Assembly: GCA_026552955.1 (NCBI GenBank)
Contig: JAPMTS010000030.1
Location: 275 to 37,574 of the forward strand
Direction: 5' to 3'
DNA from: Candidatus Methanoperedens sp.
Lineage (GTDB): Archaea; Halobacteriota; Methanosarcinia; Methanosarcinales; Methanoperedenaceae
Length of the DNA stretch: 37,300 nucleotides
Shown here piece by piece: positions 2,928-37,290 of this stretch; position 1 is the stretch's first letter, and each line of letters begins with the position of its first letter. The position numbers and the translations under genes were made by a program. Below the pieces are notes generated by a model, which saw only the letters and a list, made by a program, of their open reading frames with translations, did not search any database and was not told where the DNA came from.

Positions 2928-3003
2928 TGGGAGAATTTATGGCAAGGTGGTCAAAATTATTATTGGGGAGGAAGACGTATGAAATCTTTGAATTGGAATA
3001 ATT

Positions 3004-3027: not shown

Positions 3028-3069
3028 TGCAGAGGAGGTGAGGCGCAGGAAAAAATAATGGGGGCAATT

Positions 3070-4586: not shown

Positions 4587-4589
4587 TGT

Positions 4590-5144: not shown

Positions 5145-5184
5145 GAAAGGGACAAAATCATCAAAAGTTAAGGAGGAAAACACT

Positions 5185-5622: not shown

Positions 5623-5649
5623 TGCAAGGAACCTGGAAAAAATAACTTT

Positions 5650-6078: not shown

Positions 6079-6081
6079 TGT

Positions 6082-6495: not shown

Positions 6496-6706
6496 CCGTA
6501 TGGAACTGAGAAAAATCATTATACCATTGGCATGATTTATGTTATAAATGGCGGTTAGTGGGGATTTATTTGATGAAAGAAGATTTCCTGCCCACAGCAC
6601 CCCTTCATATCAGAATCATAAAATAAGGCATTTGCAGTCTGCTTTTCCATCTGCAAAAATTATTTGACAGCGGGATGATCTGCAGCGCCATGAAAGAGGA
6701 GACTAT

Positions 6707-6760
6707 ATGATCACAGAAAAAGGATTTAGAGTTCTCAAAACTATCCCTGATATATCATGA
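6707..6760 (+). CDS. 17-aa leader ORF coupled to the Ddn-like gene
   Basis: ATG at 6707, preceded by AGAGGAG, opens a 17-codon frame ending TGA 6758-6760. It overlaps the next gene's start as ATGA (6757-6760). The Ddn-like gene itself has no good ribosome site, so ribosomes ending here could reinitiate. The rest of the 260-nt gap after the NTF2-like gene shows no gene. Confidence 0.3.
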   Translation: MITEKGFRVLKTIPDIS

Positions 6761-7194: not shown

Positions 7195-7252
7195 AGGTTT
7201 TAATTGCTCAATAAGAAGAAATAATGACACGTTTAGTCTTTCGATCACATTA

Positions 7253-14057: not shown

Positions 14058-15393
14058 GTATCCATCAATTGCCAGGACTGGAAAATATTTCGTAACAGCG
14101 ATTCTCCTTTTTATTTTTCAGATGATACTGGGTCTTATCATGAGTTTTGATTTTGTTTTAAGGGGAACATCAAATACGCCTGTCCCATTTGATATCTTGA
14201 AATCTCTGCACCTCAATGTAATGGTCCTCTGGCTTCTTCTTGGCTTCATTGGAGGTCTTTATTTTCTCTTGCCTAAAGAGGTTGGAAGAGATGTAAAGTA
14301 TCCAGTGCTTATTGATTTCCAGTTCTGGTTCTTGCTGCTTATCGGTATAGGTATAATCATTTCTGAACTTTTTTTCACAGGCAAGAACTGGTGGCTTGTG
14401 GAAGGACGGGAATATGTTGAAGCTGGCAGGTTCTGGGATATATTGCTCACTCTTGGACTTTTAAGTGTGGTCTATAATGTGGGAATAACGATCCATGAAC
14501 GAAAACGACATATGAGCTCACCAATGCTTGTCCTTGCAGCGGGTGCGGTCGGTTCTATATTAATGTACATCCCCGGTGAGATATGGTTCAATAGCATCAT
14601 CGCAGCTGAGTACTTCAGGTGGTGGGTGGTACATTACTGGGTCGAAGCTACGTTTGAACTCATAGCGGCAGGAGCGATCGCGCTGATACTTCTCTCAATA
14701 ACAGATGTGCGCCGGGAGATAATAGAGAAATATCTGGCAATTGAGGTCGCCCTTGTCCTGATAACTGGAATAATTGGTCAGGGTCACCACTATTACTGGA
14801 TCGGCACTCCAGGATTCTGGTTATTCGTTGGAGGACTATTCAGTGCTCTTGAACCTGTGCCGTTATTTCTGATGGCCTGGTCAGCATATAAAGACCTGAA
14901 AGAAAACAAAAAACCCATGCAAAATAAGGTCGCCCTTTACATGATAATTGGAGCAACATTGGGGAACTTGCTTGGCGCGGGAGTCTGGGGTTTTATCCAT
15001 ACCCTGCCTCAGATCAATTTTTTCACTCATGGTACCCAGATAACAGCTTCACATGCGCACTTCGCCACTCCTGGAACTTACCTTTTCCTTGTTCTGGGAT
15101 TTGCGTATATTGCCATACCGGCGCTTTCAGATAGAACGAACTTCTTTCAATTAAGGGGTAAAATCGGCTTCTGGATTCTGGTAATCGGATTCTTGAATAT
15201 GATCATTGCACTCCTTCTTGCAGGGATAATTCAGGTGCAATTGCAGAGGATTTCAGGCATGAGTTTCATGGAAGTCCAGAATATATTGTTACCATTTTAT
15301 GGTTGGAGAACGATAGGTGGTGTGATAGCACTAATGGGTGGACTGGTCGTAACATATGATATAATAATGATTGGTAGAAAGAAAATAGTTTAA
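14050..15393 (+). CDS. norB: nitric oxide reductase subunit B (heme-copper superfamily)
   Basis: 447 residues and about 12 membrane helices. All cNOR catalytic residues have counterparts. H54 (SLHLNVMVLW) and H337 are the low-spin heme b ligands, and H335 (ASHAHF) the heme b3 ligand. H195 (VVHYWVEATFEL) with H246/H247 (GQGHHYYWIG) are the FeB ligands. E199 is the extra FeB glutamate, and E268 (ALEPVPLF) the second conserved Glu. The reaction is 2 NO + 2 e- + 2 H+ to N2O + H2O. No N-terminal quinol-oxidase-type extension is present, so it is the short cytochrome c-linked form, consistent with norC next to it. NorD and NorQ accessory genes are not in the window. The related sNOR, eNOR and gNOR types lack this full Glu set. 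Confidence 0.85.
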   Translation: MIEYPSIARTGKYFVTAILLFIFQMILGLIMSFDFVLRGTSNTPVPFDILKSLHLNVMVLWLLLGFIGGLYFLLPKEVGRDVKYPVLIDFQFWFLLLIGIGIIISELFFTGKNWWLVEGREYVEAGRFWDILLTLGLLSVVYNVGITIHERKRHMSSPMLVLAAGAVGSILMYIPGEIWFNSIIAAEYFRWWVVHYWVEATFELIAAGAIALILLSITDVRREIIEKYLAIEVALVLITGIIGQGHHYYWIGTPGFWLFVGGLFSALEPVPLFLMAWSAYKDLKENKKPMQNKVALYMIIGATLGNLLGAGVWGFIHTLPQINFFTHGTQITASHAHFATPGTYLFLVLGFAYIAIPALSDRTNFFQLRGKIGFWILVIGFLNMIIALLLAGIIQVQLQRISGMSFMEVQNILLPFYGWRTIGGVIALMGGLVVTYDIIMIGRKKIV

Positions 15394-17402: not shown

Positions 17403-17871
17403 ACGCCAGAAACAGATACAGCTTGCTGTTGAAAAATTTACTTCACAGGTCAGAGATGTTAATGGAGTAATTGAAGTTGCTCTATTCGGCTCAGCAGCTT
17501 CGGATAAACCCAATCCTCAGGATTTTGATCTCATGGTTTTCATAGAGAATGTTGCTTGTATTCCCCACATTTCCAAAAGTATACGGAAAACCACAAATAT
17601 ATTCCATGCCCATGATGTGTTTATTTTTGATGAGAGAAAAAAGTATCTTGGAAGGATTTGTCAGCGAAGCGTTTGCCCTACAAGTTCTGTGGAGTGCTAT
17701 ATCAAAGATTGTGGAAAGATCCAATATCTGAAACAACTTGACCGATTTGTGTTTGACGAAAAAAAAGCCTTCAAAATAAGACCTGTTGTCATCTGGAAGA
17801 ATCCTGAACAGAAAGAAAGCATAAGCCAGCAGTGGTTCAATGCATTGGCATCAAAATCGCCAACTTTATAA
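17395..17871 (+). CDS. nucleotidyltransferase domain protein (MNT/pol-beta type)
   Basis: 158 residues with VIEVALFGSAASDKPNPQDF followed by DLMVFIEN. This is the G-S-x(n)-D-x-D signature of the polymerase-beta nucleotidyltransferase superfamily (GS at about residues 31-32 and two acids at QDFDL), which would bind Mg-NTP. The rest (YIKDCGKIQYLKQLDRFVFD) is unassigned. Minimal nucleotidyltransferases are commonly the antitoxin or toxin half of toxin-antitoxin pairs; here the partner would be the overlapping winged-helix ORF rather than HEPN. The next SEC-C gene begins about 11 nt downstream. Confidence 0.7.
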   Translation: MNERQKQIQLAVEKFTSQVRDVNGVIEVALFGSAASDKPNPQDFDLMVFIENVACIPHISKSIRKTTNIFHAHDVFIFDERKKYLGRICQRSVCPTSSVECYIKDCGKIQYLKQLDRFVFDEKKAFKIRPVVIWKNPEQKESISQQWFNALASKSPTL

Positions 17872-17882
17872 TCCTCAATTCC

Positions 17883-19265
17883 ATGTTAGAGGCAATGAAT
17901 CTGAAAGCTGGCAGGAACGAGCCCTGCCCCTGTGGCAGTGGAAAGAAATATAAGAAATGCTGCATGAAAACTCAGGAAATTAAGGAGAATGCAGAGCGCA
18001 AACTTAGAGAGAAGATACTTGAGTTCTCCAGAGAGCCGCTCTTTAAGGCTGAATTCGAAGAAGCGAGGAAGGTCTTCTTGGAAGGGAGAGAGCCCGACGA
18101 AGGCGATGAAGTCATGTTCATTGACTGGTTCATTCATGACTACAGGCTGAAAAATTATGGTAAGAGTATCATTGAGTTGTTCTATATTGAAAAAAATCCG
18201 TTCCTTCCCCCTGTCGAAAAGGAAATTCTCGAAGGATGGCAGGATACTGCTCTCAGGGTTTATGAAGTAACTGGAATAGAAAGAGATAGAGGCATACATA
18301 TCAGGGATCTCTTTGATAATAATGAAATATTTGTTCATGATATACGTTCTTCCAGAAGAATGACTAAATGGGACATTGGTGCATTGAGAGTTATTAAAAC
18401 GCTCGGCAAATTCTATCTTTCTGGAGCAGCATGCCTCTTACCTGCGACTCGCAAGGCTGATATGATCCAGTTCGGTAAGGAAAGTTTTCTAAGGTTCAAG
18501 ATGGAAAAGCCAGAGGCGACATGGCAGGATTTTTTCAAAGAGCGCGGCCATACTTTCATTAATTTCGCCTTCATGAAAGCAGCTCAGACTCCAAAGATTG
18601 TAACTCCTGAAGGTGATCCAATTCTTTTTACAAAGGCGGTCTATGAAGTCAAGGATTATGATAAGGCGGTGAATGCGCTTTATGAAATTCCTGATCTTGA
18701 GATTGTTGAGTCCGATCAGGATGAAATTCACTTTAAATTAGTCACCGAGATAAAAGATCATTACATCAATGAAGGAAATATAAGGTTTGAAACATCTCTG
18801 GTTTCTGATGATGGTGATCCGCAGTACAGGTCAATGGGAGATCTGACAATTAACAGCAAACAGCTTATTCTGGATTGCCTTTCCGAAAAAAGACTTGAAC
18901 TCGGGAAAGAGATGCTTAAAACTCTGGGAGATTCCATTGAATTCATATCAGAGTCAAAGCAACATCCTGATCTTAGCGGCAGAAAAAATGAGGGCAAGAA
19001 AGGCAAAATCCAACAAAATGAGATAGATGAGCCTCTGCGTGAAATGCTCGGGAAGAAATTCCTTGAAGATCACTATCGAAGATGGGTGGATATGCCCATT
19101 GGATCCTTAGGAGGAATGACACCCAGAGAAGCTTCAAAAACACAGGAAGGGAAAGAGAAGCTTAAAGAAGTCCTTAAAGTAATGGAAAATGCTGAGGAAC
19201 GAAGACATAGAGCTGGAGAATTGAGCTATGATGTTCATAAATTGCGTGAAGTGCTGGGGATGTGA
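17883..19265 (+). CDS. SEC-C motif protein, 460 aa
   Basis: A SEC-C zinc motif at the N-terminus ([19 protein letters not shown]-x-C and CC ligands) is followed by a long domain I cannot name, with segments such as EVMFIDWFIHDYRLKNYGKS and FFKERGHTFINFAFMKA. Its C-terminal piece, WVDMPIGSLGGMTPREASKT then QEGKEKLKEVL, is a P-x-x-x-L-G-G-x-T-P-R-E-A block seen at the end of other SEC-C proteins. SEC-C motifs, first known from SecA, bind zinc and act in protein or nucleic-acid contacts. ATG 17883 is chosen; a GTG at 17832 inside the previous gene and ATG 17895 are alternatives. Two more SEC-C genes follow. Confidence 0.7.
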   Translation: MLEAMNLKAGRNEPCPCGSGKKYKKCCMKTQEIKENAERKLREKILEFSREPLFKAEFEEARKVFLEGREPDEGDEVMFIDWFIHDYRLKNYGKSIIELFYIEKNPFLPPVEKEILEGWQDTALRVYEVTGIERDRGIHIRDLFDNNEIFVHDIRSSRRMTKWDIGALRVIKTLGKFYLSGAACLLPATRKADMIQFGKESFLRFKMEKPEATWQDFFKERGHTFINFAFMKAAQTPKIVTPEGDPILFTKAVYEVKDYDKAVNALYEIPDLEIVESDQDEIHFKLVTEIKDHYINEGNIRFETSLVSDDGDPQYRSMGDLTINSKQLILDCLSEKRLELGKEMLKTLGDSIEFISESKQHPDLSGRKNEGKKGKIQQNEIDEPLREMLGKKFLEDHYRRWVDMPIGSLGGMTPREASKTQEGKEKLKEVLKVMENAEERRHRAGELSYDVHKLREVLGM

Positions 19266-19289
19266 ACTTTTTGCTCGATAAAATGAGAT

Positions 19290-20288
19290 ATGGAAAATAA
19301 TGAGACAATAGAAGAAAGGGACGATCTTGAAGATCTCATAGATGACAATACTGACTATTACTGGAATGAACTTCAAGAAGTAATACCTGAAATGGATACG
19401 CTATCATTGATCAGAACAATGGTTGAGCTTGAACTTTTTGTTAATAAAACTCTTGCTCTTGAAATCTCAAAAAGGGATGATGCCGTATTTCATCTGCGAA
19501 AGATCATCCAGGATGGTGATTACTGGGAGTATGATGGTCTTGGGAACGGATGGGCGCCCATTCATACAATTTTTATACTCCCGCTTATCAAGAATAAGGA
19601 AGCTCTACAGCTTCTCCTTGATATTTTTAGATATCGACGGAAAGATATCACAAACAGGATAACAGGGGAAGTTTCTGGTCTTTTTTATCATTTTGGAGAA
19701 AATGGGATAAAGAACCTCATCGAGTTCACCAAAGATGAAACCCTGGAACCATTTGGGCGGGCTGAAACCATAATAAGTCTTGTGGCTCTTGCAAAAACGC
19801 ACAGTTCTCATAAAGAAGAAATTATGAGACATATTTCAAACCTTATAGAAACCACCGATGATATTACTTTTGCAAGCCTGATAGCAGATGACCTGGCAGC
19901 ATTTCAGGATAAATCAGTCCTTCCCATTTTGAAAAAAGCATTTCAGGATGGAAGAATAATTAATTTATTCATTCATGAAAAAGAAGTAGAATCAATTATA
20001 AACGGGAATACCCCATATGAGATGGAAAGATATACCGTTGATCCGCTGACTCACTTTTCACGAGAAAATATTGAGGATCTTTACTTTGAATGTTATGACG
20101 ATGATGAGGACGAAGATATTGAAAATGAATCATTTCTGGTTGATGAAGAGGAAGATGATGAGGAAATATATTCAGATACTATCAAGCCTGAACAGCCTGT
20201 GAAGCAAAAAAAGGTTGGCAGGAATGCTCCATGTCCATGCGGTTCCGGCAAGAAATATAAGAAATGCTGCCTGCCAAAAGGGAAGTAG
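19290..20288 (+). CDS. DUF1186-like HEAT-type protein with C-terminal SEC-C motif
   Basis: 332 residues. The middle is a string of helical repeats typical of DUF1186: [40 protein letters not shown], then [20 protein letters not shown] and [21 protein letters not shown] very acidic linker rich in Asp and Glu (about residues 260-300) leads to a SEC-C motif ([18 protein letters not shown]). The start is ATG 19290 with a weak GAG upstream. It is a close homologue of the gene at 20726. HEAT-like repeats plus a zinc knuckle suggest a scaffold or adaptor; no enzyme motif is seen. Confidence 0.75.
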
Positions 20289-20324
20289 TAACGCGGCACA
20301 CGTTGATTTTAATTTGATGTAACA

Positions 20325-20696
20325 GAAGAGCGCTCCCATATCAACATCTTCAAGCTTGGCGCATATTATTTCAAGCTTCTTCGATGACCTCAGAGCTGTT
20401 CAGAGAGATTGAGACTTACTATTAGAAGCAAAGATACAGGTTCAAAATGGCGATCGCAGGAGAGAGGAACAAGGTGATGAAAATTCTCGATAAGAAGAGT
20501 TATGACCCCACTTTGATCGAAGACCCTGCACCTTTCACAGTGGAGAATAAGCAGGTATCAGAAGTACGGAGAATTGCTCAAGAATTCGGTGGAAAGCTAC
20601 CCACTCCGGGGTAAGATCGTGCTGGTCATGAAGGATATGGCGTGGGTGGAGCAGGCGGTGACGATGGAGGCGGTGGTGAGGGGCGGGAAACGATGA
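20325..20696 (+). pseudogene. decayed copy of the 131-aa gene at 26131
   Basis: DNA across this stretch follows the gene at 26131-26526 almost base for base (for example ATCAACATCTTCAAGC, AGATACAGGTTCA and ATCGAAGACCCTGCACCTTT). It lacks the first codons and carries several single-base indels and stops, so no frame longer than a fragment survives; it ends TGA 20694-20696. It fills the 437-nt space between the two DUF1186/SEC-C genes, so either the SEC-C duplication or this insertion split an older arrangement. Confidence 0.85.
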
Positions 20697-20725
20697 GTTC
20701 TTTTTGTTGAGAAAGAGTTATACAA

Positions 20726-21583
20726 GTGGGCAATACTAAAATGAGAAACATGTCCGAATATAAAGAAATGAATACTGAACATCTGATAAGTGAGATGGTC
20801 TATCTTTGTCTGGAAGTTCCACCCGAACTCGCCCAGGAAATTGCCACAAGAAATGATGCCATTTCCTATCTGAGGGATATCCTTCAAAATGGAAAATACT
20901 GGGATCATGGCGGTCCGGGTGATGCCTGGACGCCCTATCATGTTATTCATATTCTGGCTTTAATAAAAATAAAAGAAGCTCTTGAGCTTTTGCTTGAAAC
21001 TATGAGAAATAAGAATGATCTTTTAGGTGATTGGATCACGGAAAGCACCCCGACTCTGCTTGCCGCATTTGGTGAAAGTGCGATAGAACGACTGAAGGAA
21101 TGTGTTCTCGATGAAAAACTTGACCTGTATATTCGAGGCTCGATCGCAACGGCTTTGAATGTGATCGCCCATCAACATCCTGATAAAAAAGAGGAAATAA
21201 AGGCTTTTCTTACAAAGCTTTTAGACGATACCAATGACCCAACGTTTGCAGCATTCCTGATAGATGAAGTGCTTTCATTCAAGGATCCGAACCTTGTTCC
21301 CCAGGTACGGAAAGCATTTGAAGATGGGAAAATAGATACGGATGTAATAAGTCAATATGATGTGGATTGGGTTTTCAATCTGCCAGAAGAAGAGCAAAGC
21401 TATAGCAAATTTATGAAAAGCCCGCTGGAGCATTTTTCCAGAGAGAACATCAACTACCTCAAAAAGATATCTTATCCAAAGAAAGAAACTCCCACGAAAA
21501 AAACTAAGACGAAAATAGGTCGCAATGATCCATGCCCATGTGGTTCTGGAAAAAAGTACAAGAAGTGCTGCATGAAAAAATGA
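20726..21583 (+). CDS. DUF1186-like protein with C-terminal SEC-C motif (paralogue)
   Basis: 285 residues from GTG 20726; ATG 20741 is an equally good start. The same helical plan as the gene at 19290 is seen: ATRNDAISYLRDILQNGKYW, WTPYHVIHILALIKIKEALE, IRGSIATALNVIAHQHPDKK and FAAFLIDEVLSFKDPNLVPQ, then PLEHFSRENINYLKK (compare [15 protein letters not shown]) and a SEC-C motif ([18 protein letters not shown]). It lacks the long acidic linker of its sister and has a short Lys/Thr linker instead. Tandem duplication with divergence is clear. The function is unknown. Confidence 0.75.
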   Translation: MGNTKMRNMSEYKEMNTEHLISEMVYLCLEVPPELAQEIATRNDAISYLRDILQNGKYWDHGGPGDAWTPYHVIHILALIKIKEALELLLETMRNKNDLLGDWITESTPTLLAAFGESAIERLKECVLDEKLDLYIRGSIATALNVIAHQHPDKKEEIKAFLTKLLDDTNDPTFAAFLIDEVLSFKDPNLVPQVRKAFEDGKIDTDVISQYDVDWVFNLPEEEQSYSKFMKSPLEHFSRENINYLKKISYPKKETPTKKTKTKIGRNDPCPCGSGKKYKKCCMKK

Positions 21584-21605: not shown

Positions 21606-22040
21606 TTGAACCTGACCAGTATTTTCAATCCTTTCATGATCTGCCTCCTGCGCTCACCTCTACATAAGATTGCCAGCAAAAACACACTTCTCATAACATT
21701 TACTGGATGCAAGAGCGGCAGAAGATATACTACCCCTGTTAATTATGTGCTTGATGGTAATGTTATTTTCATAACAAGCCTGCACAGTCGCTCCTGGTGG
21801 AGGAGCCTGCGGAGAGGCGCTGCGATCAGTATACGCCTGAAAGGGCAGGATATGGAAACATACGGGGATGTCATTGAAGATGACGAGAATGTAACAAGAC
21901 AACTAATCGCATATCTTCAAAAGGTTCCGCAATATGCGCGATATTTCAAAGTGAATCTTGATCCTGATGGTAATCCAAACCCTGAAGATGTTGCTCAGGC
22001 GGCAAAGGAGAGAGTCATGATCCTGCTCAGATCAGGATGA
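21606..22040 (+). CDS. deazaflavin (F420)-dependent nitroreductase-like protein, second copy
   Basis: 144 residues, nearly the same as the protein at 6757 along its whole length: SIFNPFMICLLRSPLHKIAS, FTGCKSGRRYTTPVNYVLDG, LHSRSWWRSLRRGAAISIRL and NPNPEDVAQAAKERVMILL. Here the classic G-C-K-S-G-R-x-Y-x-T-P motif is intact. The start is TTG 21606 at the position of the paralogue's ATG. It is coupled to the radical-SAM gene by an ATGA overlap (22037-22040). A redox role using F420H2 fits the iron-sulfur neighbour, but that is inference. Confidence 0.8.
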   Translation: MNLTSIFNPFMICLLRSPLHKIASKNTLLITFTGCKSGRRYTTPVNYVLDGNVIFITSLHSRSWWRSLRRGAAISIRLKGQDMETYGDVIEDDENVTRQLIAYLQKVPQYARYFKVNLDPDGNPNPEDVAQAAKERVMILLRSG

Positions 22041-23263
22041 TCAGAATGCGATATGTTGCCGAAAAAAATCCGGAAAAATGCAGACAATGTGGATTTTGCG
22101 ATGAGGTAGCATGTTCAAGCAGGTATGTTGGGTATTCTGAGGAGTGCAGGGGATGCGGGGCGTGCAGTCTTGCCTGTCCTTATGAAGCTATTCAGATGAT
22201 TGAAATTCAGAATGGAAAGAGCATATCTATTACAGTGGATGGAGCAATTATTTCAGTTCCGGAGAGAGTTACTGTCAAAAAAGCGCTTGAGATGTGCGGC
22301 TATGAACCGTGTGATTTTCCAGGAGATGGAAATCTCTTCTCCCCCTGCAGGACCGGTGGATGCTGGAGCTGTGCGGTTCTCGTGAATGGTGAACTGATGC
22401 CATGCTGTGTCGCAGCAGTTAAAGAAGGAATGAATATTAACACAGAAACAGAGGTTACTCCAAAAAGACCTGTTCACGGCTGGATGGGGCATGCTGTTGG
22501 AGGTGTTGGTACTCCGTGGCGTTTGAAAAAGTCATCCGGTTTCATAGAAACAGCATGTTTTACCTGCGGATGTAACTTCCAGTGTATGCAGTGCCAGAAC
22601 TGGACCACGACATATAATGGAAGAGAGATCGCCCTGACTCCTAAAGAGGCAGCTTTACTCATGAGCGATGCGAGAAGAAACTATAGAGTGGATAGAATGG
22701 CTATTTCGGGAGGAGAGTGTACTCTGAACAGGAAATGGTTAATTGAATATCTCAGGGAATTGAAAAAGAAAAACACTGATGAAAAGGCACGTTTTCATGT
22801 GGATACAAATGGTTCGATACTGACACCTGATTATCTGGATGAACTGGTCGATGCCGGGATGACTGATATAGGCATAGACCTCAAAAGCTTCGAACTTGAA
22901 ACATTTTCGCACATGACAGGTGTAAATAACAGGGAAATAGCCAGAAAATATTTAGAAACTGCATGGAATGCGGTAAAGCATATTGTTGATTATTATCCTG
23001 AAAAAGTGTTTGTTGGTATTGGAATTCCATATAACAATAATCTCATCTCACTTGAAGAGATCCGTAAAATGGGGGATAAAATAAGAAATATCGATGAGAA
23101 TGTGCAGGTCTGCGTATTGGACTACAGACCAGCGTTTCGAAGACCATACATACAGAGACCGGAATATGAAGAAATGGTCAAAGTCTGGACAATTCTTTCC
23201 GGAACTGGTTTGAAAACTGTGATCTGCCAGACTGCCAACGGTCATATAGGGCCGGAATTATGA
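22037..23263 (+). CDS. radical SAM protein with N-terminal 2[4Fe-4S] and [2Fe-2S]-like domains
   Basis: 408 residues in three parts. Residues 15-47 hold two ferredoxin motifs (C15xxC18xxC21x4C26 and C37xxC40xxC43x3C47P). Residues 60-130 look like a plant-type [2Fe-2S] or SoxR-like cysteine loop (CRTGGCWSCAVLVNGELMPC). From 170 is a radical-SAM core with C179NFQC183MQC186 followed by QNW, as in pyruvate-formate-lyase-activase/AmrS-type enzymes, then ISGGECTLN as the SAM-binding GGE motif. Such enzymes cleave S-adenosylmethionine to start radical chemistry; the extra clusters would feed electrons. The target is unknown, with no glycyl-radical enzyme in the window. It is coupled to the F420-type gene upstream. 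Confidence 0.8.
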   Translation: MIRMRYVAEKNPEKCRQCGFCDEVACSSRYVGYSEECRGCGACSLACPYEAIQMIEIQNGKSISITVDGAIISVPERVTVKKALEMCGYEPCDFPGDGNLFSPCRTGGCWSCAVLVNGELMPCCVAAVKEGMNINTETEVTPKRPVHGWMGHAVGGVGTPWRLKKSSGFIETACFTCGCNFQCMQCQNWTTTYNGREIALTPKEAALLMSDARRNYRVDRMAISGGECTLNRKWLIEYLRELKKKNTDEKARFHVDTNGSILTPDYLDELVDAGMTDIGIDLKSFELETFSHMTGVNNREIARKYLETAWNAVKHIVDYYPEKVFVGIGIPYNNNLISLEEIRKMGDKIRNIDENVQVCVLDYRPAFRRPYIQRPEYEEMVKVWTILSGTGLKTVICQTANGHIGPEL

Positions 23264-27718: not shown

Positions 27719-28906
27719 TTAACAATCAATATCAGGCCACCATGCATCAGGCAGTTTCTTCTTGATCTCATCCTTAGGCAAAGAAATGATTTTTGAATAA
27801 TCCGATTTAGGAATTCTTTTTCGTTCCAATTTGGATGAATGAAACTTATGATTATTTCGAATACAAATATTCTGACGCCTTACATTTTTCCTGAATTGTT
27901 TGACTTTAATATCTGTCCAACTTTTTTCTTTATTAATATAATAGTCATTTGGTGTTTGCTCGATATTACCATTATAATTATCAAATTCTTGAGTTAATGG
28001 TCTGTTCCTGCAATCTGCTATTTGCACACCGAATTCAAAACATTTTTTTCTTTTAGATTCCATCTCTTCAAAACTATAGTCACTGTTATATATCATAAAA
28101 ATTGAAATCTCTTTGGACTTATAACCCGCTTTACATAAGACATTTATCTGTTTTTTGATCTTTTTCCAGTCTTTGTAGGGCCCATCCCAGGCAATTCTTG
28201 GAATGATAAACTTTGCTTTTTTAAGCAATTTTGCAATTTTCAAAGTAAGTAATCTTCCATCAAATCCACTTTGGCTTTCAGAATATACATTTCTTCCATT
28301 GACTTTTAAATCCACAAGCTCTTTTAAAATTTCTTCAATAAATGGATTAGCCAGAAGGTTATTATCGTAAAAAACGAGTTTGTTTTTCACAATTTCATCT
28401 TTTATGCTTTCTTTTGGAATAAAATCTGGTTCTATCTTCCAAACTCCACAAAAAGGACAATGACGTTTACATCCTCGTGATGCATGAATTATCTGGTAAT
28501 CAACATCTATGAGACCATAATCAGGCGCAGATTTTTCGAAATCTTCAACAGTTCCTTTAATCGCGTTCACATTAAGTTCAGCACATTTTTTTTGAAATTC
28601 TGAATTCTCGAAAAATAGAGATACATAAATACCGCCGACATTAATTGGAGTATCAACGAATAAAGTCCTATAATAATTAACAGTATCCCAAAATTCTTGT
28701 TGCCAATATGTAAAAAGCGAGGTTATATATATTAAGTCTGGTTCAAAATCAACATTCACTTTACCATGAATAAGATGGAGGGTATTATTTAATGTTTTAT
28801 GGTATGATGCAATTTTCAATAATGGAATTGGAAGGAAGTCTTTATGGTTGAGACTTTTTGAGGGTATCGGAAATTTTGGTTGTACTAAAAGAATATTTTG
28901 ATTCAA
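27719..28906 (-). CDS. radical SAM protein with degenerate B12-binding-like N-terminus, last gene of the DISARM-like operon
   Basis: 395 residues. The start is TTG 28906 with GAGGT about 7 nt upstream; no in-frame ATG fits. Residues 1-130 have the strand/helix order of the cobalamin-binding domain seen in B12-radical-SAM proteins (ILLVQPKFPIPSKSLN, PDLIYITSLFTYWQQEFWDT, INVGGIYVSLFFE) but lack a D-x-H-x-x-G motif. The radical-SAM cluster is C146KRHC150PFC153 in HASRGCKRHCPFCGVW, followed by VFYDNNLLANPFIEEIL. The C-terminal 100 residues are basic and unassigned (KQFRKNVRRQNICIRNNHKF). It lies 39 nt after the 1100-aa gene on the same strand and shares its AT-rich codon use. It may modify a nucleic acid, protein or small molecule; typical DISARM carries a DNA methyltransferase instead. 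Confidence 0.75.
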   Translation of the reverse strand: MNQNILLVQPKFPIPSKSLNHKDFLPIPLLKIASYHKTLNNTLHLIHGKVNVDFEPDLIYITSLFTYWQQEFWDTVNYYRTLFVDTPINVGGIYVSLFFENSEFQKKCAELNVNAIKGTVEDFEKSAPDYGLIDVDYQIIHASRGCKRHCPFCGVWKIEPDFIPKESIKDEIVKNKLVFYDNNLLANPFIEEILKELVDLKVNGRNVYSESQSGFDGRLLTLKIAKLLKKAKFIIPRIAWDGPYKDWKKIKKQINVLCKAGYKSKEISIFMIYNSDYSFEEMESKRKKCFEFGVQIADCRNRPLTQEFDNYNGNIEQTPNDYYINKEKSWTDIKVKQFRKNVRRQNICIRNNHKFHSSKLERKRIPKSDYSKIISLPKDEIKKKLPDAWWPDIDC

Positions 28907-28945
28907 AACTTTACCTCAGACATATCTACTTTTAATAATATATTA

Positions 28946-31900
28946 TCACTGCCCTATATTAACAATTGTACATTTTCTCATTTTTTCCTCAATTGCGATA
29001 TCTATAGGATTTAACATCTCCCCTTTTCCGTTGGCAACTCTATTTATGGAACGACCTACTTGTCGCAGAAAAGTACCGATTCTACTTCCCTTTTCATTAA
29101 TAATTTGATAATTTTCTATAATTCCACTATGCCCAATAAGTCGCCCTATGACCATTACATTTGTGTCATCATGAAATGAATAATGGGCAGCTTCATTTAT
29201 AGCAGTAGAACATAATTGTTTGAATGATGTTTCTTTATAATTTAATCCCATTATTTTAGCGATATCAAATAATTTAGAATATGTTATATTTTTAGTACCT
29301 TTTATTAAAATTTTCATCAAATTCTCTGGCACTATTAATCCTTTCCATATGCTATCGTCGATTAATAAATCTAAGGAACTTTGTAAATTCGAGTTATCAC
29401 AACGATGATCATAGCCAAATAACAGATTAAATATTTTGAAAAAATTCTCTTTTTGTTCTGGCGAAAGCCAATCAAATTTCTTCATTTTACTTTCATCATA
29501 ACTTTGTTTGAAATTCAAAGAATGAATAATTTCATAAAAAGTTTTCAAGGCAGTCAATGGTTTTGTAATTTCTTCCAACGACATATCGTCCTCCGCCAGT
29601 ATCGTTTTCAATAAGTAATTTTCTATACTTTCACGTTCATCAGTTTGTATGTATATTATCTGATCATTTTCAGAAAGTTCATCTATAGATGTAAGAATAT
29701 AATCGTCTCCTTGTTTTTTCCTTATCAATATGCCTCTTTGGAAAGCAATGCTGTCTGTTGTTCCTTCATCAAACTTTACATCAAAAGTTATGTATTCTTT
29801 AGAAGGATTATGAATGAATGATCTCTTTTGGGGTATATTGTGATCTTTACTTCGTATTTGAGACCATATTTCTTTAAGTGTTTTCATCTCTTCTATGTCG
29901 GTTTCATCAGCTCTGGATTCATTCAATTGTTCTTGCCTTATTAAAGAGTCTATTGGATTGTCGAATCTATCTTCTATCACAACACTAACATCTGGTTTAG
30001 GTGGCAATTCATAACGGCGGCTTTTATTTGTGTGATCAATTGAAAATAACAAGTCCCGTCTTGAGATATTGGTTTCCTTCTCTGAAATAAGATCTTTGTA
30101 TAATTTTATTTGTTTCAATAATTCTTTGAAATTTCTTCCAGGATAGGCAAAAAAGATAATTTTTTTGAACAATAACAAAGCATCGTACCCATGAGAAATT
30201 AATATGTCGTCATCAGATATTGTATGAAAAGGAATTGGACCTGGGATCAATAATTCGCTGGTTTTTATATGTTCATATGGCAAAGTTTGCATTGCTGAAA
30301 GATCAGCATAACTAATTAGTATCTCATGTTCAATAGAATTTTTATGAGAATTATTAGAGAAGTATTCAACTTTGACTTTTAGAATTGAATCGATTTGCTT
30401 TCTTTCAAATAAAATGTTTAATAGTTTTTGCTCATTGAATGAACCATCATCTTTTACAAAAGCTTTGTAAATAATAAAGTCGTTAAGAGATCTTTTCTTG
30501 ATAGTATCATTTCGATCGACCTCCAAATATTCCAATAGAATATTTATGTGTTCTGTTATTTCCAAAATCGGTTCTTTTTGAGAAAAAGTTATTTTGATTT
30601 CAGCATTTGTGTTAGAAATAAACCTTCGTTTAAAATTATGAATACTCGCCCTTTGTATCATTCCATTTTCATAGATAATTTCTCTAATTAGCTCACCATT
30701 TTTGGATTTATATTCTAAAAAAAGGGTGTTATTTGCCTTATGTATGTTAATAGAGCTTTTGATACTTTTGAATGAATTAAAATAATAACTTAAAGAATCA
30801 AAAAATGAAGTTTTTGTTTTAATGAGATGGGGATATAGATTTGCAGCAATAACAGATGTTTGTATTCTTTTGATTTCTTTGTTTTTACTTCCTTCGTGAT
30901 TCATTATATCATCAATTTTCTCAAGAAAATAACTCTGAAAAAGAGTTTTCTTAGTAACCGAAGAATTAGTATAAATTCCCCTTAATTCATATGACAAATC
31001 TCTAAATCTTTCTATATCAGAACATAAACCATTAAATGCCCTGATCGCATGATTCCCGTCTCCCTTTATAATAGAAATCGATTCGTTTATAGGAAGAGAC
31101 AACCACTTATTTTGTAATAAAAAACTCCTTTTAACCTCAGAAGGGCAAAGGAATGTATTTATGACAGGTGGAAATCTCAAAATGTTTTCATAAAATCCTC
31201 CAATTGGTTCATATTTTAGATGTTTCCAGATGTCTTCGATTATTGTATCAAAATACCAATTCCAATCTATAAGTTCATTTGCTGATAGATTTTCTTTATT
31301 TATGTTTAATGCTGGTAATCTTATCCTAAAATCTAAAGAATTTTCATCCGGATAATATACCTTGTCCCAAAGTTCTCCCTCCAATGAAAGATGAATTAAA
31401 TTTAAAGACGGCTTTTTAATTTTTTTGCATGTTTCCATACAAAGTCTTTTTCCTATATGGAACACATTGACATCATAATCATTTTTTATATTTATTAGAA
31501 ATGCAGATAGCCCTTTTAAGTAGGGCCACGAAAAGTGTAAAAGTAATTTTCTATCAGAATTCTTAATGGTTTTTATTAATTCAGTGATGTTATCCAGAGT
31601 ATAGCGCCTTTCATTTATCGATTCATAGATTATCAGCTTTGGATCAAATTTATCTAACTTATGACCAAGTTTTTCAAATTTTATTTCTTTCTTATCAATT
31701 AATCCAGCAGGAGTTATACCTTCTATGGGTATTGATACGATTTTAGGAATCTTTTGAAAACTACCATTATTTAATCTTTCTATAATTGTCTCTTCATATT
31801 TTCTTTTTCGTGATAAAGTACCGTGTGTAGGGTAAGTTTCAATATCCAATTCTGTCAGTTCATTTTGTTCTTCATCAATTTTACCACTACACCAAAGCAT

Positions 31901-32248
31901 ATCATAATAGAAATATCTTGAAGAAGAGGGAAATTTGCGTCGATATAATAAAGAGAAATATATTTTAGTATATTTTCCTTTAGTTAATTTAGTTCCATAA
32001 TAATCATTAAATAATAATTTTGGTATTCCGATAAGCACATCCTGATTTTTTTGATAGGCAAACAGACAAGAAATAATTGGTGTTAAATTTAATGGGCCCT
32101 GTGAAAAAATTATAGTTACTTTTTTATCAATTATAGAATCGAGGATACTCAGGGAAATAGGGGATAGATTTTCATTTTTTTCTTTAATTATAATTACTTG
32201 TTGATCTTTTTCATCTATGTATTCCAATGTGTCTAACTTTATTTCCAT
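28946..32248 (-). CDS. 1100-aa DISARM-associated protein, possibly DrmE-like
   Basis: No family is recognised with certainty. It starts at ATG 32248, overlapping drmC by 10 nt, so it is translationally coupled. Residues 1-330 look like two Rossmann-type strand/helix blocks (VTIIFSQGPLNLTPIISCLF, DVLIGIPKLLFND; then PKLIIYESINERRYTLDNIT, DRKLLLHFSWPYLKGLSAFL) but have no Walker A. A region near residue 820-880 (EYITFDVKFDEGTTDSIAFQ, GILIRKKQ, ELSENDQIIYIQ) is all-beta and resembles a hydrolase-associated beta module. The end is helical (MVIGRLIGHSGIIENYQIIN, FLRQVGRSINRVANGKGEM). Class 2 DISARM includes DrmE, a large protein without a clear enzymatic motif, and this may be a distant version; that is inference from size and position. 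Confidence 0.65.
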   Translation of the reverse strand: MEIKLDTLEYIDEKDQQVIIIKEKNENLSPISLSILDSIIDKKVTIIFSQGPLNLTPIISCLFAYQKNQDVLIGIPKLLFNDYYGTKLTKGKYTKIYFSLLYRRKFPSSSRYFYYDMLWCSGKIDEEQNELTELDIETYPTHGTLSRKRKYEETIIERLNNGSFQKIPKIVSIPIEGITPAGLIDKKEIKFEKLGHKLDKFDPKLIIYESINERRYTLDNITELIKTIKNSDRKLLLHFSWPYLKGLSAFLINIKNDYDVNVFHIGKRLCMETCKKIKKPSLNLIHLSLEGELWDKVYYPDENSLDFRIRLPALNINKENLSANELIDWNWYFDTIIEDIWKHLKYEPIGGFYENILRFPPVINTFLCPSEVKRSFLLQNKWLSLPINESISIIKGDGNHAIRAFNGLCSDIERFRDLSYELRGIYTNSSVTKKTLFQSYFLEKIDDIMNHEGSKNKEIKRIQTSVIAANLYPHLIKTKTSFFDSLSYYFNSFKSIKSSINIHKANNTLFLEYKSKNGELIREIIYENGMIQRASIHNFKRRFISNTNAEIKITFSQKEPILEITEHINILLEYLEVDRNDTIKKRSLNDFIIYKAFVKDDGSFNEQKLLNILFERKQIDSILKVKVEYFSNNSHKNSIEHEILISYADLSAMQTLPYEHIKTSELLIPGPIPFHTISDDDILISHGYDALLLFKKIIFFAYPGRNFKELLKQIKLYKDLISEKETNISRRDLLFSIDHTNKSRRYELPPKPDVSVVIEDRFDNPIDSLIRQEQLNESRADETDIEEMKTLKEIWSQIRSKDHNIPQKRSFIHNPSKEYITFDVKFDEGTTDSIAFQRGILIRKKQGDDYILTSIDELSENDQIIYIQTDERESIENYLLKTILAEDDMSLEEITKPLTALKTFYEIIHSLNFKQSYDESKMKKFDWLSPEQKENFFKIFNLLFGYDHRCDNSNLQSSLDLLIDDSIWKGLIVPENLMKILIKGTKNITYSKLFDIAKIMGLNYKETSFKQLCSTAINEAAHYSFHDDTNVMVIGRLIGHSGIIENYQIINEKGSRIGTFLRQVGRSINRVANGKGEMLNPIDIAIEEKMRKCTIVNIGQ

Positions 32249-33045
32249 ACCCTTCCTCGAGAAAACATGGAATCAAATACTTCACAAATTCCCACAACAT
32301 TAGCCCCTCTGAGCATACAACCGACTTCAAAATTTGCAACAAGACTGTTTCTGCGCAACTCTGCACTTCCTATATATGCTAAATCGTAATCAGCTATCAG
32401 AAGTTTTGCATGAGTGCTTGAAAATATTCCACCTTGTTCAGATGATATATGATAGTCAACTATTCTTAATTTTTCATTTTTTTCTAAATTCTTTGAGATA
32501 TCAATTATCCATCTAACTTCATCACCTCGGTTTTGAAACAATTCCCTTGATAGCAACCGTATCTCTACATTTCTTTCAAAGGCATCGATAATAAGCTGTT
32601 TTAAATCTGGAAAAGTGTCATCGTTAATGACATTTCTCTGAATAAACGGTGAACAAATTCGAAGAATCTTATTGGCAGATGTGATTATTTCACGAAAACA
32701 ATCGATGCTATCAATCTGCTTATTTCTATTTTCGATACCTCCAAGACTTAATTCTTTAAGTCTGGGTCTTGAAATAACTATAGAAATGTTTTCATTTGAA
32801 TTATTAATTGAAAATGGTTTTATTAAACATATAGAGGATTCATCCAATGAAGTTTTCTTTTCAATGATTTTAAGATTCCCGGTTCTCAACGCATTGCTAA
32901 TTGCATTTCGTAATTCTGCTTCTGTGGTAGGAATATTAGTATGATAATTCCGTATCAGTTCTTTGATACTACAAGTTTCATTTACCATCATATATCGGTT
33001 TATATATTCTTGAATTGCAACTTCAACATGGGGATTAATCTTCAT
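32239..33045 (-). CDS. drmC: DrmC-like phospholipase D-fold protein
   Basis: 268 residues with one HKD motif, H212-A-K214-L-L-I-A-D219, in SSTHAKLLIADYDLAYIGSA then ELRRNSLVANFEVG. That is the single phospholipase D signature with the usual downstream G-S and N. A strand/helix lead (ITSANKILRICSPFIQRNVI) and an N-terminal winged-helix-like segment (VNETCSIKELIRNYHTNIPT) precede it. One HKD per chain implies a dimeric active site. DrmC of DISARM has this architecture and is reported to be non-essential for defence. The ATG overlaps the drmB stop (ATGA), and its 3' end overlaps the 1100-aa gene. Confidence 0.8.
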   Translation of the reverse strand: MKINPHVEVAIQEYINRYMMVNETCSIKELIRNYHTNIPTTEAELRNAISNALRTGNLKIIEKKTSLDESSICLIKPFSINNSNENISIVISRPRLKELSLGGIENRNKQIDSIDCFREIITSANKILRICSPFIQRNVINDDTFPDLKQLIIDAFERNVEIRLLSRELFQNRGDEVRWIIDISKNLEKNEKLRIVDYHISSEQGGIFSSTHAKLLIADYDLAYIGSAELRRNSLVANFEVGCMLRGANVVGICEVFDSMFSRGRVWK

Positions 33046-35000
33046 GTGAGATACCCTTTTACAAATCTATCTGAACCACCAACAAGGGTTGATCTGTCAA
33101 TATCCTGATTGTAATTGCAGCAAACGAATTCTGGTACATAACTGCAAGCATTACATGCACCACCTTCGTCGATCATACAAGCAGGATCTTGAGGGCAATC
33201 ATTAGCAAGTTCCATCACTCTGCTGAACCAATCCTCCAGATGATAGTCGTATGTATATTCAAGACCGCCAATATTAATGCTATTTGTGGAATAAATAAAT
33301 ATGGAGGCGATATTCGGATAAACGATCTCAGAAACGCTTTGAAGGTCAAGACCCGTATCAATTGTGGATTGCTGCATAAGCATATGAGAGTATGAATGCA
33401 GAAGTGTATATACCGCTTTTTTGCAATTCTCATCCATAGAAATAACCTGTCTGTAATGTGTTCTGGCTTTTATCCCTGCTGGAGGTGAAATTTCAATTTT
33501 CGGTTTCACATAATCTCGATTCTCCTGCAACCAATTGAGAATTTTATTACAATCCAATTGGAAAAGTATGCCCTCTGTAAAGAAATTCCTCAAAAAAATT
33601 GTTGGTTTCTTATGGTCTTTTTTTCCTGTCTCTATAGGTCTAAACAATACCGGTTTCCTTCGAGTAGAACCTTCAATTATTCCCAAAATCGCTTGAACCA
33701 TATTAAGGTCTGGATGATGTACAACCTTTTTTAATCCAAATTTGTTACGCCAGACTTCGGGATTAGAGAGAAAAGTCTTTGGTTTATCTCTTTTTCCAAT
33801 GTTAGTAGAGCATAGTAGATTCAACCCTTCTAAATCATTTTCATCGAAATTTATTTCCTTCACAGAATTTAAAGCCTTTTTGATAAAATCTATTCCAAAT
33901 TTTTCTTGTATCCTGCTCCTTTCAGCACCATCTTGTATCGAAAGGTTTGCATTCTTCAAAATACGTTTTATTACTTTCAAAAATTGATTTTGGTTAAACT
34001 GAAATCGATCTGGTATTTTCATATCAAGATCATAAAAAACATCATCAATTATCTCATTCACTTTGACAAGCTTCCAGAAATTTTCTTCTTTTAATAAAGC
34101 ATTCTTGAACTCTGGAAGATACAGTTTAGCTTCCTCAAAATCAAGTTCAAAGAAGAAGTTAAAAGCTTCTGATAGTGCTTTTCCCTGAGTAGTTTTTCTA
34201 CCAGATTTATCAATTTCATCATGCTGCGGAATATCAGGAATAGAAATCACAAATGGATGAACAATGGCATTTGCTCTTGCAGGAATTCCTTTGAACCGTT
34301 TGGATTGGCATTTAGATAAACACTGACCGGTTTTTCGAATTGTATGGTCGCAATCATAAAAGTATAATCCCACTTCGTTTCCGCATTTTCTGCATTTTAT
34401 TTTATAGGAACTTATATCATCTTTCCCTCTTGTCCACCTTAATATTGATAGACCCTGTATTTCCCCACATTTTTTACAATCATTGAAAATCATTCTGTTG
34501 TTTTCCTGTTTTGCTAAATTAGTCATATAATGCAGAGGAAGGATTCTGCCGCATTCATCACAGAAAGTGAGAAATGTGAACTGCTCCCAGGGATCGGTAT
34601 CCTTATGGCCACATATTCGTTTTTCACCCAACATGAAATAGTTGTAACAATTATCTTTCTTGCATAATGCAGTTGGAGGATAGATTTCAAATCGTCCGCA
34701 TGCACCTTCTTCTTTGGCATCATCTATCAGTTTGATAGCTTCAATCTTGAGATCATAAGGATTTATTTCATGGAAATCTCCCCCATCATCTTTTCTTGAT
34801 GCTATTTTTCTATTGATTAACCTACTAAATATGGGCCTATATTTTTCAATATTAAAGTCACTGTTTTTATTAATATCGGTATAATTTGATTGTATTCTAA
34901 AACTTAAATATCTATTAAATTTTCTTGAAAAAAATTGATTGATATGCCCTTGAAAGAAACAGCTGTTCTCAGGGATTTGATGAGTAAAATCATCATCCAT
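33042..35000 (-). CDS. drmB: DrmB (DUF1998 protein)
   Basis: 652 residues. DUF1998 occupies the C-terminus: KKAVYTLLHSYSHMLMQQST, IFIYSTNSINIGGLEYTYDY and a final cysteine cluster NDCPQDPACMIDEGGACNAC then EFVCCNYNQDIDRSTLVGG. More zinc-type knuckles are upstream (CDECGR, CKKCGE, CRKCGN, CDHTIRKTGQC). In DISARM, DrmB binds DrmA to form the complex that loads on DNA with a 5' overhang. The R-S-T-L-V-G-G end is typical. It is placed between the helicase gene (2 nt gap) and drmC (ATGA overlap). The length matches known DrmB proteins of roughly 600-700 residues. Confidence 0.85.
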   Translation of the reverse strand: MDDDFTHQIPENSCFFQGHINQFFSRKFNRYLSFRIQSNYTDINKNSDFNIEKYRPIFSRLINRKIASRKDDGGDFHEINPYDLKIEAIKLIDDAKEEGACGRFEIYPPTALCKKDNCYNYFMLGEKRICGHKDTDPWEQFTFLTFCDECGRILPLHYMTNLAKQENNRMIFNDCKKCGEIQGLSILRWTRGKDDISSYKIKCRKCGNEVGLYFYDCDHTIRKTGQCLSKCQSKRFKGIPARANAIVHPFVISIPDIPQHDEIDKSGRKTTQGKALSEAFNFFFELDFEEAKLYLPEFKNALLKEENFWKLVKVNEIIDDVFYDLDMKIPDRFQFNQNQFLKVIKRILKNANLSIQDGAERSRIQEKFGIDFIKKALNSVKEINFDENDLEGLNLLCSTNIGKRDKPKTFLSNPEVWRNKFGLKKVVHHPDLNMVQAILGIIEGSTRRKPVLFRPIETGKKDHKKPTIFLRNFFTEGILFQLDCNKILNWLQENRDYVKPKIEISPPAGIKARTHYRQVISMDENCKKAVYTLLHSYSHMLMQQSTIDTGLDLQSVSEIVYPNIASIFIYSTNSINIGGLEYTYDYHLEDWFSRVMELANDCPQDPACMIDEGGACNACSYVPEFVCCNYNQDIDRSTLVGGSDRFVKGYLT

Positions 35001-35002
35001 AA

Positions 35003-37066
35003 TTATCTCTCCTTTTGTTTCAAAATAATTTCATCTTCTGGTTTTACTTCAAGAACCAGTTGTTTTTGTATTCCGCGCATACCGGATTGATTTCGGAAAA
35101 ATTGTTCACCAGATTTAGTCAATATATTTGGAAAGAATTCCTTATCTTTAGCATTACCTTTTGTTATCTGGTTAATTCTTTTCTCAACCTCATCACTAAT
35201 ATTTATATCAAGTCCGCCTTTCCCATATGTTTTTGTGATAAACTCTACCAACTCTTCCTTTTCTTTCAATGTTAATTCACTTACATGATTTTTAAGATAG
35301 AACGGTCTACCTTTTTTATTAGATAGATAATTAATAATCCCTGCACAGAACATTGAGTTTATTGTTTGTTGCAGTCCAAGGCGTGAAGCCCGATTTATTG
35401 GGACAGGCCTGACTTCATGATCAAGAGAATTATGGTACCTGTCAAAATTACGGAAAAAACTGTCATCTCGCACACGGTTTGGATAAAACCAAAGAAGTAC
35501 AATACCGAGATTTTTTCTACCAACTCTGGAAAGAGCTTGAATATATTCTGAAGTTGAATATGGCAATCCTTGGAAAATCATGAAGTTTAACTCTGTCAGG
35601 TCTACCCCATGCGATACAACGGATGTTGCATAAATTGGTTCAAATATTAGTCCGCCATTATCTACAATTTTGGGATCATAATTTTTGACAAAATATCTTA
35701 CTTTGTCAATTGCCTCTTTGAGTTGGTCAAGGCTGCTATCTCCCGTTAAAACCTCACCTTTGACATCCGAACCATTGAAATGTGTCTTTAATCGGTCTCC
35801 GACAACAGCATCTTTTAATCGCCCCATATCATATGCATCTTGTTTCTTAATGTGGTATGTTAATGGGATTAGATACTGGTTTATGAGTTCCTGTGCTTCA
35901 GAAGAGTCCTTCAAATCAAATTTGATAAAAAAACTTTTCGGATCTGAATTCAAATCTTTTTGAGCATTAATAATGAACTCTGCAAAATGAAGTAGAGTTC
36001 TGAGGGAGGCATAATGGTTATCCCTTAAATTAGGTTTCAAGCCAAATATTATTCGTTTAGGTCCTTCCTTTTTTTCAAAGAAAAAATCATTTTGACTGCC
36101 AGCACCTTCGGGGCAGCGACCAGGGATTACAAAATCTTTCTTATTATATAACTCTTCTATTTGCTTTCTTGTCCCATTCAAAGTGGCACTCATAGTGATA
36201 TGTTTTAATTTGTGGTTTGAGGTGTCCTCTATGATCGTTTCTATCAATCCTTCAAAATGTGCAGAAATTGTTCCAAAACCTTCCCTGAGCAAATGCATTT
36301 CGTCCTGAATAGAAAGTAAAGGCCCACTATAATTTTTCGTATTTTCACCAAGATTTTCACATTTGAAATCCTCTTCTTGTTTATCCTCACATTTATCACC
36401 AGACTGGATGAAACCATGTCCTTCTGGGCACATGCTTCCTGATCCTCCAAGCAAACTACGAGCCCTGCGCTGCGAAGACAAACCAGCCCATTTATCCACT
36501 GTAGATACAACCACAGTGGGTCTCCACCTGAAAACTTCTCTATCGCTCTGATAAATGTAATATTCGCCTCCACATTTATCACATTTATGAATTATCCGTT
36601 TGCCCTTTTTGTCATCGATAAGGCGGATATTGCCTTTCGAATCTGGAGGGCATAAAGGACACTTTGATATTATTTTTGATATTGGCGCAGGAGATATTAA
36701 TTCCTTTTTTTCGTTATGTAGCGTCTTTTTAACTTTAACATATAAATCTGGAAAATCATCGTCACTTCCAACATAATACCCGAGAGAAAATGGAGACCCC
36801 GAAAACATATCATTATTTTTTTCTCTCACCGATTCAGCATGAATTATGATACTTGACACTCGCTCAAGCTGTTGTATAGATAACATTCTCAATGGAAATT
36901 TCACTATTGCGCTTACTCCTTCTTTTTTTCCAGTCATTCGTTCATAAAATGACGTGAAAACGACAAGAGCGAAATAAGCTTCTGATTTTCCGCCACCTGT
37001 ATCCACATGAAGTACATTCACAACATCCAGATCTTTCTTTTCTACCACCGATTCAATACTTGACAA
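35003..37066 (-). CDS. drmA: DrmA-like SF2 helicase, 5' end disturbed
   Basis: 687 residues from TTG 37066. Motif I is HVDTGGGKSEAYFAL (24-30), then RPTVVVSTVDKWAG, motif II QDEMHLL (DExH, 255-258), motif III MSATLNG, and motifs V-VI VVSHGVDLTELN and EYIQALSRVGRKNLG. Zinc-type cysteines are inserted (CPLCPP, CDKCGGEY). This set is that of DISARM DrmA. The frame stays open for 53 more codons upstream, to 37225, encoding DrmA-like sequence (NPNVREAFLKTNETFENYYL, GWRLFQIAFFLSS). It has no ATG and stops at TAG 37226-37228. DrmA proteins usually carry several hundred further N-terminal residues, so this gene is truncated, frameshifted, or an unusually short form. Confidence 0.8.
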   Translation of the reverse strand: MSSIESVVEKKDLDVVNVLHVDTGGGKSEAYFALVVFTSFYERMTGKKEGVSAIVKFPLRMLSIQQLERVSSIIIHAESVREKNNDMFSGSPFSLGYYVGSDDDFPDLYVKVKKTLHNEKKELISPAPISKIISKCPLCPPDSKGNIRLIDDKKGKRIIHKCDKCGGEYYIYQSDREVFRWRPTVVVSTVDKWAGLSSQRRARSLLGGSGSMCPEGHGFIQSGDKCEDKQEEDFKCENLGENTKNYSGPLLSIQDEMHLLREGFGTISAHFEGLIETIIEDTSNHKLKHITMSATLNGTRKQIEELYNKKDFVIPGRCPEGAGSQNDFFFEKKEGPKRIIFGLKPNLRDNHYASLRTLLHFAEFIINAQKDLNSDPKSFFIKFDLKDSSEAQELINQYLIPLTYHIKKQDAYDMGRLKDAVVGDRLKTHFNGSDVKGEVLTGDSSLDQLKEAIDKVRYFVKNYDPKIVDNGGLIFEPIYATSVVSHGVDLTELNFMIFQGLPYSTSEYIQALSRVGRKNLGIVLLWFYPNRVRDDSFFRNFDRYHNSLDHEVRPVPINRASRLGLQQTINSMFCAGIINYLSNKKGRPFYLKNHVSELTLKEKEELVEFITKTYGKGGLDINISDEVEKRINQITKGNAKDKEFFPNILTKSGEQFFRNQSGMRGIQKQLVLEVKPEDEIILKQKER

Positions 37067-37202
37067 GAAAAAAGCAATCTGGAAAAGTCTCCAGCCAGCG
37101 TTTTGAATACCCTGTTTCAGATAATAATTTTCGAATGTTTCATTTGTTTTTAGAAATGCTTCTCTAACATTTGGATTGGATGTAATGAGATTAAAACCCT
37201 TT

Positions 37203-37290
37203 TCAAGAGATTGTCGGAAAAGTCCCTAACTTCACCATATTTTAATTAATGTTATAACCGTCTGTTCGGATTATTTTTTATATAAACATT
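37203..37290 (-). promoter_or_regulatory. promoter-like segment and out-of-frame ATG at the drmA 5' end
   Basis: On the - strand a TATA-like TTTATATA (about 37279-37286) lies some 40 nt before ATG 37238, which reads MVKLGTFPTIS then TGA at 37203-37205. The DrmA frame is open from 37225 in another frame, so a one-base shift between 37203 and 37225 would join this start to the helicase. Alternatively this is foreign sequence joined to a broken drmA. The remaining bases to 37300 show nothing more. Confidence 0.4.

Follow-up and report, generated by a model that had tools for sequence, protein, structure and literature searches.

A DISARM variant in a Candidatus Methanoperedens-type genome with a radical-SAM gene in place of the DNA methyltransferase

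How might a DISARM-like defence operon recognise host DNA when the methyltransferase expected beside its core is missing? The question is raised by five minus-strand genes at the end of a 37.6-kb contig from a Candidatus Methanoperedens-type metagenome-assembled genome (MAG), within a stretch of 37,300 nucleotides (the window). These genes are drmA, drmB, drmC, a gene for an 1100-aa protein and a gene for a radical-SAM (rSAM) protein, and their lengths and tight coupling are as the preliminary description had them: drmA and drmB are separated by 2 nt, drmB and drmC share an ATGA overlap, drmC overlaps the 1100-aa frame by 10 nt, and 39 nt lie between that frame and the rSAM gene.

35003..37225, minus strand: drmA, SF2/YprA-type helicase; 740-codon open frame lacking its 5' part (PADLOC DrmA, 4e-87)
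33042..35000, minus strand: drmB, DUF1998-type partner of DrmA (PADLOC DrmB, 1e-23)
32239..33045, minus strand: drmC, phospholipase-D-type nuclease (Pfam PLDc_2, 1e-11; PADLOC DrmC, 5e-14)
28946..32248, minus strand: 1100-aa protein, probably a long and divergent DrmE (collinear in profile comparison with an intermediate family positive for DrmE_C)
27719..28906, minus strand: rSAM protein, 395 aa, with a predicted B12-type Rossmann N-domain (Pfam Radical_SAM, 6e-6; phrog_9298, 4e-33; AlphaFold2 model)
28448..28471, minus strand: rSAM codons 146-153, CKRHCPFC, the CxxxCxxC iron-sulphur motif (invariant in relatives)

The PADLOC matches listed above bear out the earlier assignment of the first three genes to DrmA, DrmB and DrmC. 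In PADLOC terms the DISARM core is present, with a DrmA helicase and a DrmB DUF1998 protein encoded in adjoining genes, and the DrmC nuclease, recognised by both PADLOC and Pfam, carries a single HxKxxxxD motif (HAKLLIAD). The drmB product is 76-80% identical to the DrmB of relatives. All three proteins score below the NCBIfam curated cut-offs (257.5 of 950 bits for DrmA, which is incomplete in the window, 72.5 of 240 for DrmB and 37.8 of 133 for DrmC), and the class 1 helicase DrmD has no PADLOC match among the five operon proteins. The right edge of the window (37300) is the contig end, and the DrmA frame spans only positions 349-1084 of a 1085-position profile; it retains a Walker A sequence (TGGGKS) and a DEMH box, and is 84-85% identical to the complete DrmA of relatives (1086-1128 aa). 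A stop codon lies before the frame, and the similarity to relatives ends near its first codons, so that drmA has either been disrupted or bears an error at the contig end; we regard a frameshift or contig-end error and a real break as equally likely.

Elsewhere in the window, on the plus strand, lie a COX1-type haem-copper oxidase subunit (14050-15393; 1e-68), encoded here in a lineage considered anaerobic, three neighbouring SEC-C-motif genes (17832-21583), two of which encode DUF1186 proteins, and a 408-aa protein with 2Fe-2S ferredoxin, 4Fe-4S and radical-SAM domains (22037-23263) that is unrelated to the rSAM protein of the DISARM operon.

Do the two extra genes belong to the system? Searching 100 relatives with the 1100-aa protein gave matches in eight, the window's own genome counted. 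An unbroken drmA-drmB-drmC-1100-rSAM order is present at locus L014, in a different genus of the same family, and at L016 and L017/L018, which represent two genomes of the window's genus; in intact relatives of the family the 1100-aa gene always lies between drmC and the rSAM gene, and loci at contig edges (L015, L019, L020) retain the 1100-rSAM pair. The wider phylum holds the set in L031, L032 and L035, as well as in L033 and L034/L135, where the rSAM gene and a DndB-like gene lie upstream of drmA; L036, L075 and L082 encode DrmA, DrmB, a shorter DrmE-like protein and the rSAM protein. The five genes or their equivalents occur in 12 genomes of at least seven families, while bacterial chromosomes were covered by a single scan with the 1100-aa protein, which is sensitive to close relatives only. 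The check proposed at the outset, whether the extra genes accompany drmABC elsewhere, thus has a positive answer in other Halobacteriota genomes, and recurrence of the set across this phylum indicates that both genes belong to the system.

Some copies are altered. Locus L021 (G040:C4:172000-191900) contains, at about 1461-8113, a decayed operon in which the DrmA and DrmB frames are broken, the 1100-aa protein is reduced to its first 99 residues and the rSAM gene was not found. One in-frame TAG each occurs in the rSAM and 1100-aa genes of L031 (G328) and in a family member at L010 (G033), in genomes of the order Methanosarcinales, reflecting either pyrrolysine read-through or decay.

The case for replacement of the methyltransferase is built on a survey in which the same 393 genomes of the phylum were searched for both rSAM and DrmA. 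The rSAM protein occurs in 25 genomes, DrmA in 20 and both in ten, and in all ten, from seven families, the rSAM gene adjoins drmA; half of the DrmA genomes (10 of 20) thus carry a neighbouring rSAM gene, against 25 of 393 genomes with rSAM overall (Fisher p = 2e-8, uncorrected for kinship). C5 methyltransferases (PF00145) are distributed in the opposite manner: one lies within 12 kb of DrmA at 9 of 10 loci without rSAM, the exception being G187, compared with 0 of 12 loci with rSAM, namely G023, G024 and the ten of the survey (p = 2e-5, with the 12-kb limit picked after inspection of the data). In a canonical class-2 locus of the phylum, L125, the methyltransferase directly follows drmC. Contig ends do not explain the missing enzyme, since five of the rSAM loci sit on contigs with lengths of 145 kb to 2.8 Mb. 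Searches with PF00145 and PF02384 found no DISARM operon methyltransferase (DrmMI or DrmMII) linked to any of the 12 rSAM loci and no match anywhere in the window's genome, which is 95% complete. From the complete relatives and these whole-genome searches with two families, we reject the idea that a methyltransferase was overlooked upstream of drmA. The DrmAs tell a similar story: the tree places rSAM-linked DrmAs and the remainder on opposite sides of a split with 100/100 support, those of the ten rSAM-linked loci forming one clade.

Taken from genomics, replacement of the methyltransferase by the rSAM protein in this DISARM variant is well supported. The early observation that no methyltransferase stands beside the core extends, for the two families searched, to the relatives and to the window's entire genome, and the accompanying suggestion of an unreported DISARM subtype, or of a system borrowing the DrmABC core, gains support from the recurrence of the extra genes and the lack of a linked methyltransferase. 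As the methyltransferase is a defining feature of DISARM, we speak of a variant that works like DISARM rather than of a plain member.

The 1100-aa protein was originally called large and unrecognised. It does indeed lack a direct match in PADLOC, Pfam or NCBIfam, and a sequence search of the PDB gave only chance-like matches to Rab GTPases; an AlphaFold2 model built from three sequences was set aside at pLDDT 31. Profile comparison, in contrast, suggests that it is probably a long divergent DrmE, a class-2 DISARM subunit. The corresponding protein of equivalent operons matches Pfam DrmE_C in L036 (1.5e-13) and L075 (1.2e-15), and that of L036 also matches PADLOC DrmE (1e-8); some hmmsearch E-values in this work come from tiny databases and are to be taken as bit scores. 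Profile-profile comparison of the 1100-aa family with this DrmE_C-positive family gave probabilities of 94% (N-terminal part) and 82%, against 0.1-0.2% for control comparisons with unrelated operon proteins, and the match runs through three collinear segments, the long form having about 220 extra residues mid-protein (about 471-697). Compared directly with canonical DrmE, the 1100-aa family scores about 2%, which is not significant, and for this reason its DrmE membership is transitive and unproven. A wholly new component is less likely than a long DrmE, given the profile matches through the intermediate family, and a probable DrmE would make the system class-2-like.

What, then, is the rSAM protein? 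Its Pfam Radical_SAM match, at 27.1 bits, narrowly misses the curated cut-off (29.5), but the CxxxCxxC motif is invariant in sets of 12 and of 13 relatives, and motif and fold together place it in the radical-SAM superfamily. A sequence search of the PDB gave no match. An AlphaFold2 model (pLDDT 77.6) has MgmA, AprD4 and TsrM as its nearest solved folds by Foldseek (E 2e-8 to 5e-7; about 12% identity, TM-score about 0.5-0.6), and the enzyme is accordingly predicted to be of the B12-fold (cobalamin-fold) type. It resembles the three in its predicted Rossmann N-domain followed by a radical-SAM barrel, and differs from them in its context, which is restriction systems rather than metabolism. Genomic context suggests that the rSAM protein probably modifies DNA; the substrates of the nearest-fold enzymes, which are protein, sugar or tryptophan, count against that reading.

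That context extends well beyond DISARM. In several loci (L032, L033, L034, L072, L073, L074) and on rhizobial plasmids, rSAM relatives abut or overlap a gene of the DndB/DpdB family, the partner in some of them being a DGQHR protein of that family. The rSAM gene stands beside PbeA and PbeC in L072, L074 and L076, in an operon with a SNF2 helicase and a ParB-like protein in L069, and with a SNF2 helicase, a PIN nuclease and GHKL ATPases on the rhizobial plasmids. The window rSAM matches the viral family phrog_9298 (E 4e-33), whose members are free-standing in viruses; the family occurs in 11 IMG/VR viral contigs and in phage entries, among them Marinitoga camini virus 1 and Bacteroides LoVEphage. 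A search of viral contigs gave no match to the 1100-aa protein, and such a distribution is as expected of a protective mark.

One pair of genomes of a single genus, G357 (L032) and G258 (L072), provides an illustration of exchange. Their rSAM-DndB cassettes share 77.6% DNA identity and their Schlafen-like helicase regions on the far side 76-77%, and their rSAMs group as sisters (support 100/100); between cassette and far flank, G357 carries a DrmE-like-C-B-A set and G258 carries PbeA-PbeC. Restriction cores have thus been swapped around a constant rSAM-DndB cassette. Across the rSAM tree, in which some deep joins are unsure and some branches long, the DISARM-linked rSAMs occupy two separate parts with viral rSAMs interspersed, whereas their DrmAs form one group. 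In this sense the rSAM is a portable module common to restriction systems and viruses.

Other rSAM loci have different surroundings. Of the 25 genomes with rSAM, about 11 lack a recognised restriction partner, some of them at contig ends, and no recognised restriction gene adjoins the rSAM relatives of L071, L077, L078, L079, L081 and L084; pseudouridine synthase, carbamoyl-phosphate synthase, IS66 and sensor-kinase-like neighbours of some loci were set aside. A second, larger DGQHR-domain protein follows the rSAM-DndB pair in L073 (G408:C4, 9276-14287) and in L039 (Novosphingobium pNL1), both without a recognised restriction partner.

Several enzymes offer a chemical frame for these observations. 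Spore photoproduct lyase belongs to the radical-SAM family, and phages employ radical-SAM enzymes in thymidine hypermodification. Spore photoproduct lyase (PMC5368176) offers a precedent for an enzyme of this type with DNA as its substrate. In published work, the DrmAB complex is kept off by a trigger loop, switched on by 5'-overhang DNA and apparently repressed by methylation (PMC9142583), and the simplest reading of the variant, given that apparent repression, is that the rSAM would provide the mark that represses DrmAB. The enzyme would mark host DNA chemically, most likely on a base, with methylation of an unactivated carbon as a first guess prompted by the fold; DrmA-DrmB would load on DNA that lacks the mark and is single-stranded or has a 5' overhang, and would so become activated, and DrmC and the long DrmE-like protein may help destroy or block the unmarked DNA. 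DNA as the substrate, and the nature of the mark, are what we infer, with component roles taken over from published DISARM work. We consider it reasonably likely that this is a class-2-like DISARM in which a cobalamin-fold rSAM, probably modifying DNA, replaces the C5 methyltransferase DrmMII. We rate a broader proposal as only slightly more likely than not: that the B12-fold rSAM family installs a DNA self tag not of the methyltransferase type for unrelated restriction machineries (DISARM-like, Pbe and SNF2/PIN), and is carried by viruses for protection.

Other roles for the enzyme have to be weighed. It may modify protein or RNA (for example DrmA, DrmB, DrmE or a tRNA) and so control the system instead of marking DNA, a reading to which two of the nearest folds, MgmA (a protein methylase) and TsrM (a tryptophan methylase), lend some weight. 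Yet the DISARM, Pbe and SNF2/PIN sets have no obvious protein substrate in common, the rSAM occurs alone in viruses, and it and a linked DNA methyltransferase are mutually exclusive, all of which make such control unlikely. Alternatively, DISARM could use a methyltransferase encoded elsewhere, with the rSAM as accessory or passenger: several relatives do encode N6 methyltransferases at other genomic sites, and the search covered PF00145 and PF02384 only. This arrangement seems quite improbable beside a 95% complete window genome with neither family, rSAM adjacency held in 10 of 10 surveyed loci from seven families, and restriction cores exchanged around a constant rSAM-DndB cassette.

Prokaryotic viperins are radical-SAM defence enzymes that make modified nucleotides, and an rSAM gene in a defence operon might likewise make a small antiviral molecule, as a second effector on the DISARM core. 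PADLOC gives no viperin match for the rSAM at E 0.01, however, nor for its L036 relative at E 1; carriage by viruses does not fit an antiviral poison, and replacement of the methyltransferase and pairing with DndB/DpdB-like proteins also speak against a role that we consider very unlikely.

We return to the favoured reading, DNA marking by the rSAM, to place it among known systems. DISARM class 2 (drmE, drmA, drmB, drmC, drmMII) has homologous DrmA, DrmB and DrmC in the same order, probably shares DrmE, and occurs canonically in the same phylum (L125, L126); it differs in having a C5 methyltransferase and no rSAM, in DrmAs outside the clade described here, and in its DrmE, the putative DrmE of the variant being divergent, of greater length and encoded after drmC. 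The PbeABCD restriction module (PMC6459918; see also the CxC ABC-ATPase systems of PMC10853773) shares the rSAM or rSAM-DndB cassette through L072, L074 and L076, but consists of other restriction proteins, and its published type uses DndCDEA phosphorothioation. Pairing of some rSAM relatives with a DGQHR protein likewise recalls the Dpd 7-deazaguanine and Dnd phosphorothioate systems. In contrast to Dnd, the sulphur transfer enzyme DndC exceeded the TIGR03183 cut-off in 0 of 16 genomes, which speaks against phosphorothioation behind the rSAM loci, and the window's genome lacks the DndB-like partner. A literature search for rSAM enzymes with DISARM, DGQHR proteins or DNA modification, with most subscription papers outside its scope, found no such system described. 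A recent survey of YprA helicases reports many uncharacterised DISARM-like classes, and the searched portion of its text contains no mention of an rSAM DISARM variant (PMC12458937).

If the favoured reading is true, DISARM would not be bound to methyltransferase marks, and its core could work with a mark that radical chemistry produces, offering a natural test of how DrmAB distinguishes self from non-self. A cassette that makes such a mark could move between restriction machineries, and would join methyltransferases and the Dnd and Dpd enzymes as another type of modification module. The published work on Pbe (PMC6459918) left open which enzyme modifies DNA where its copies are solitary, and the rSAM would be a candidate partner for some of these systems. 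More broadly, it would provide a testable enzyme for DNA modification in anaerobic archaea, rhizobial plasmids and phages.
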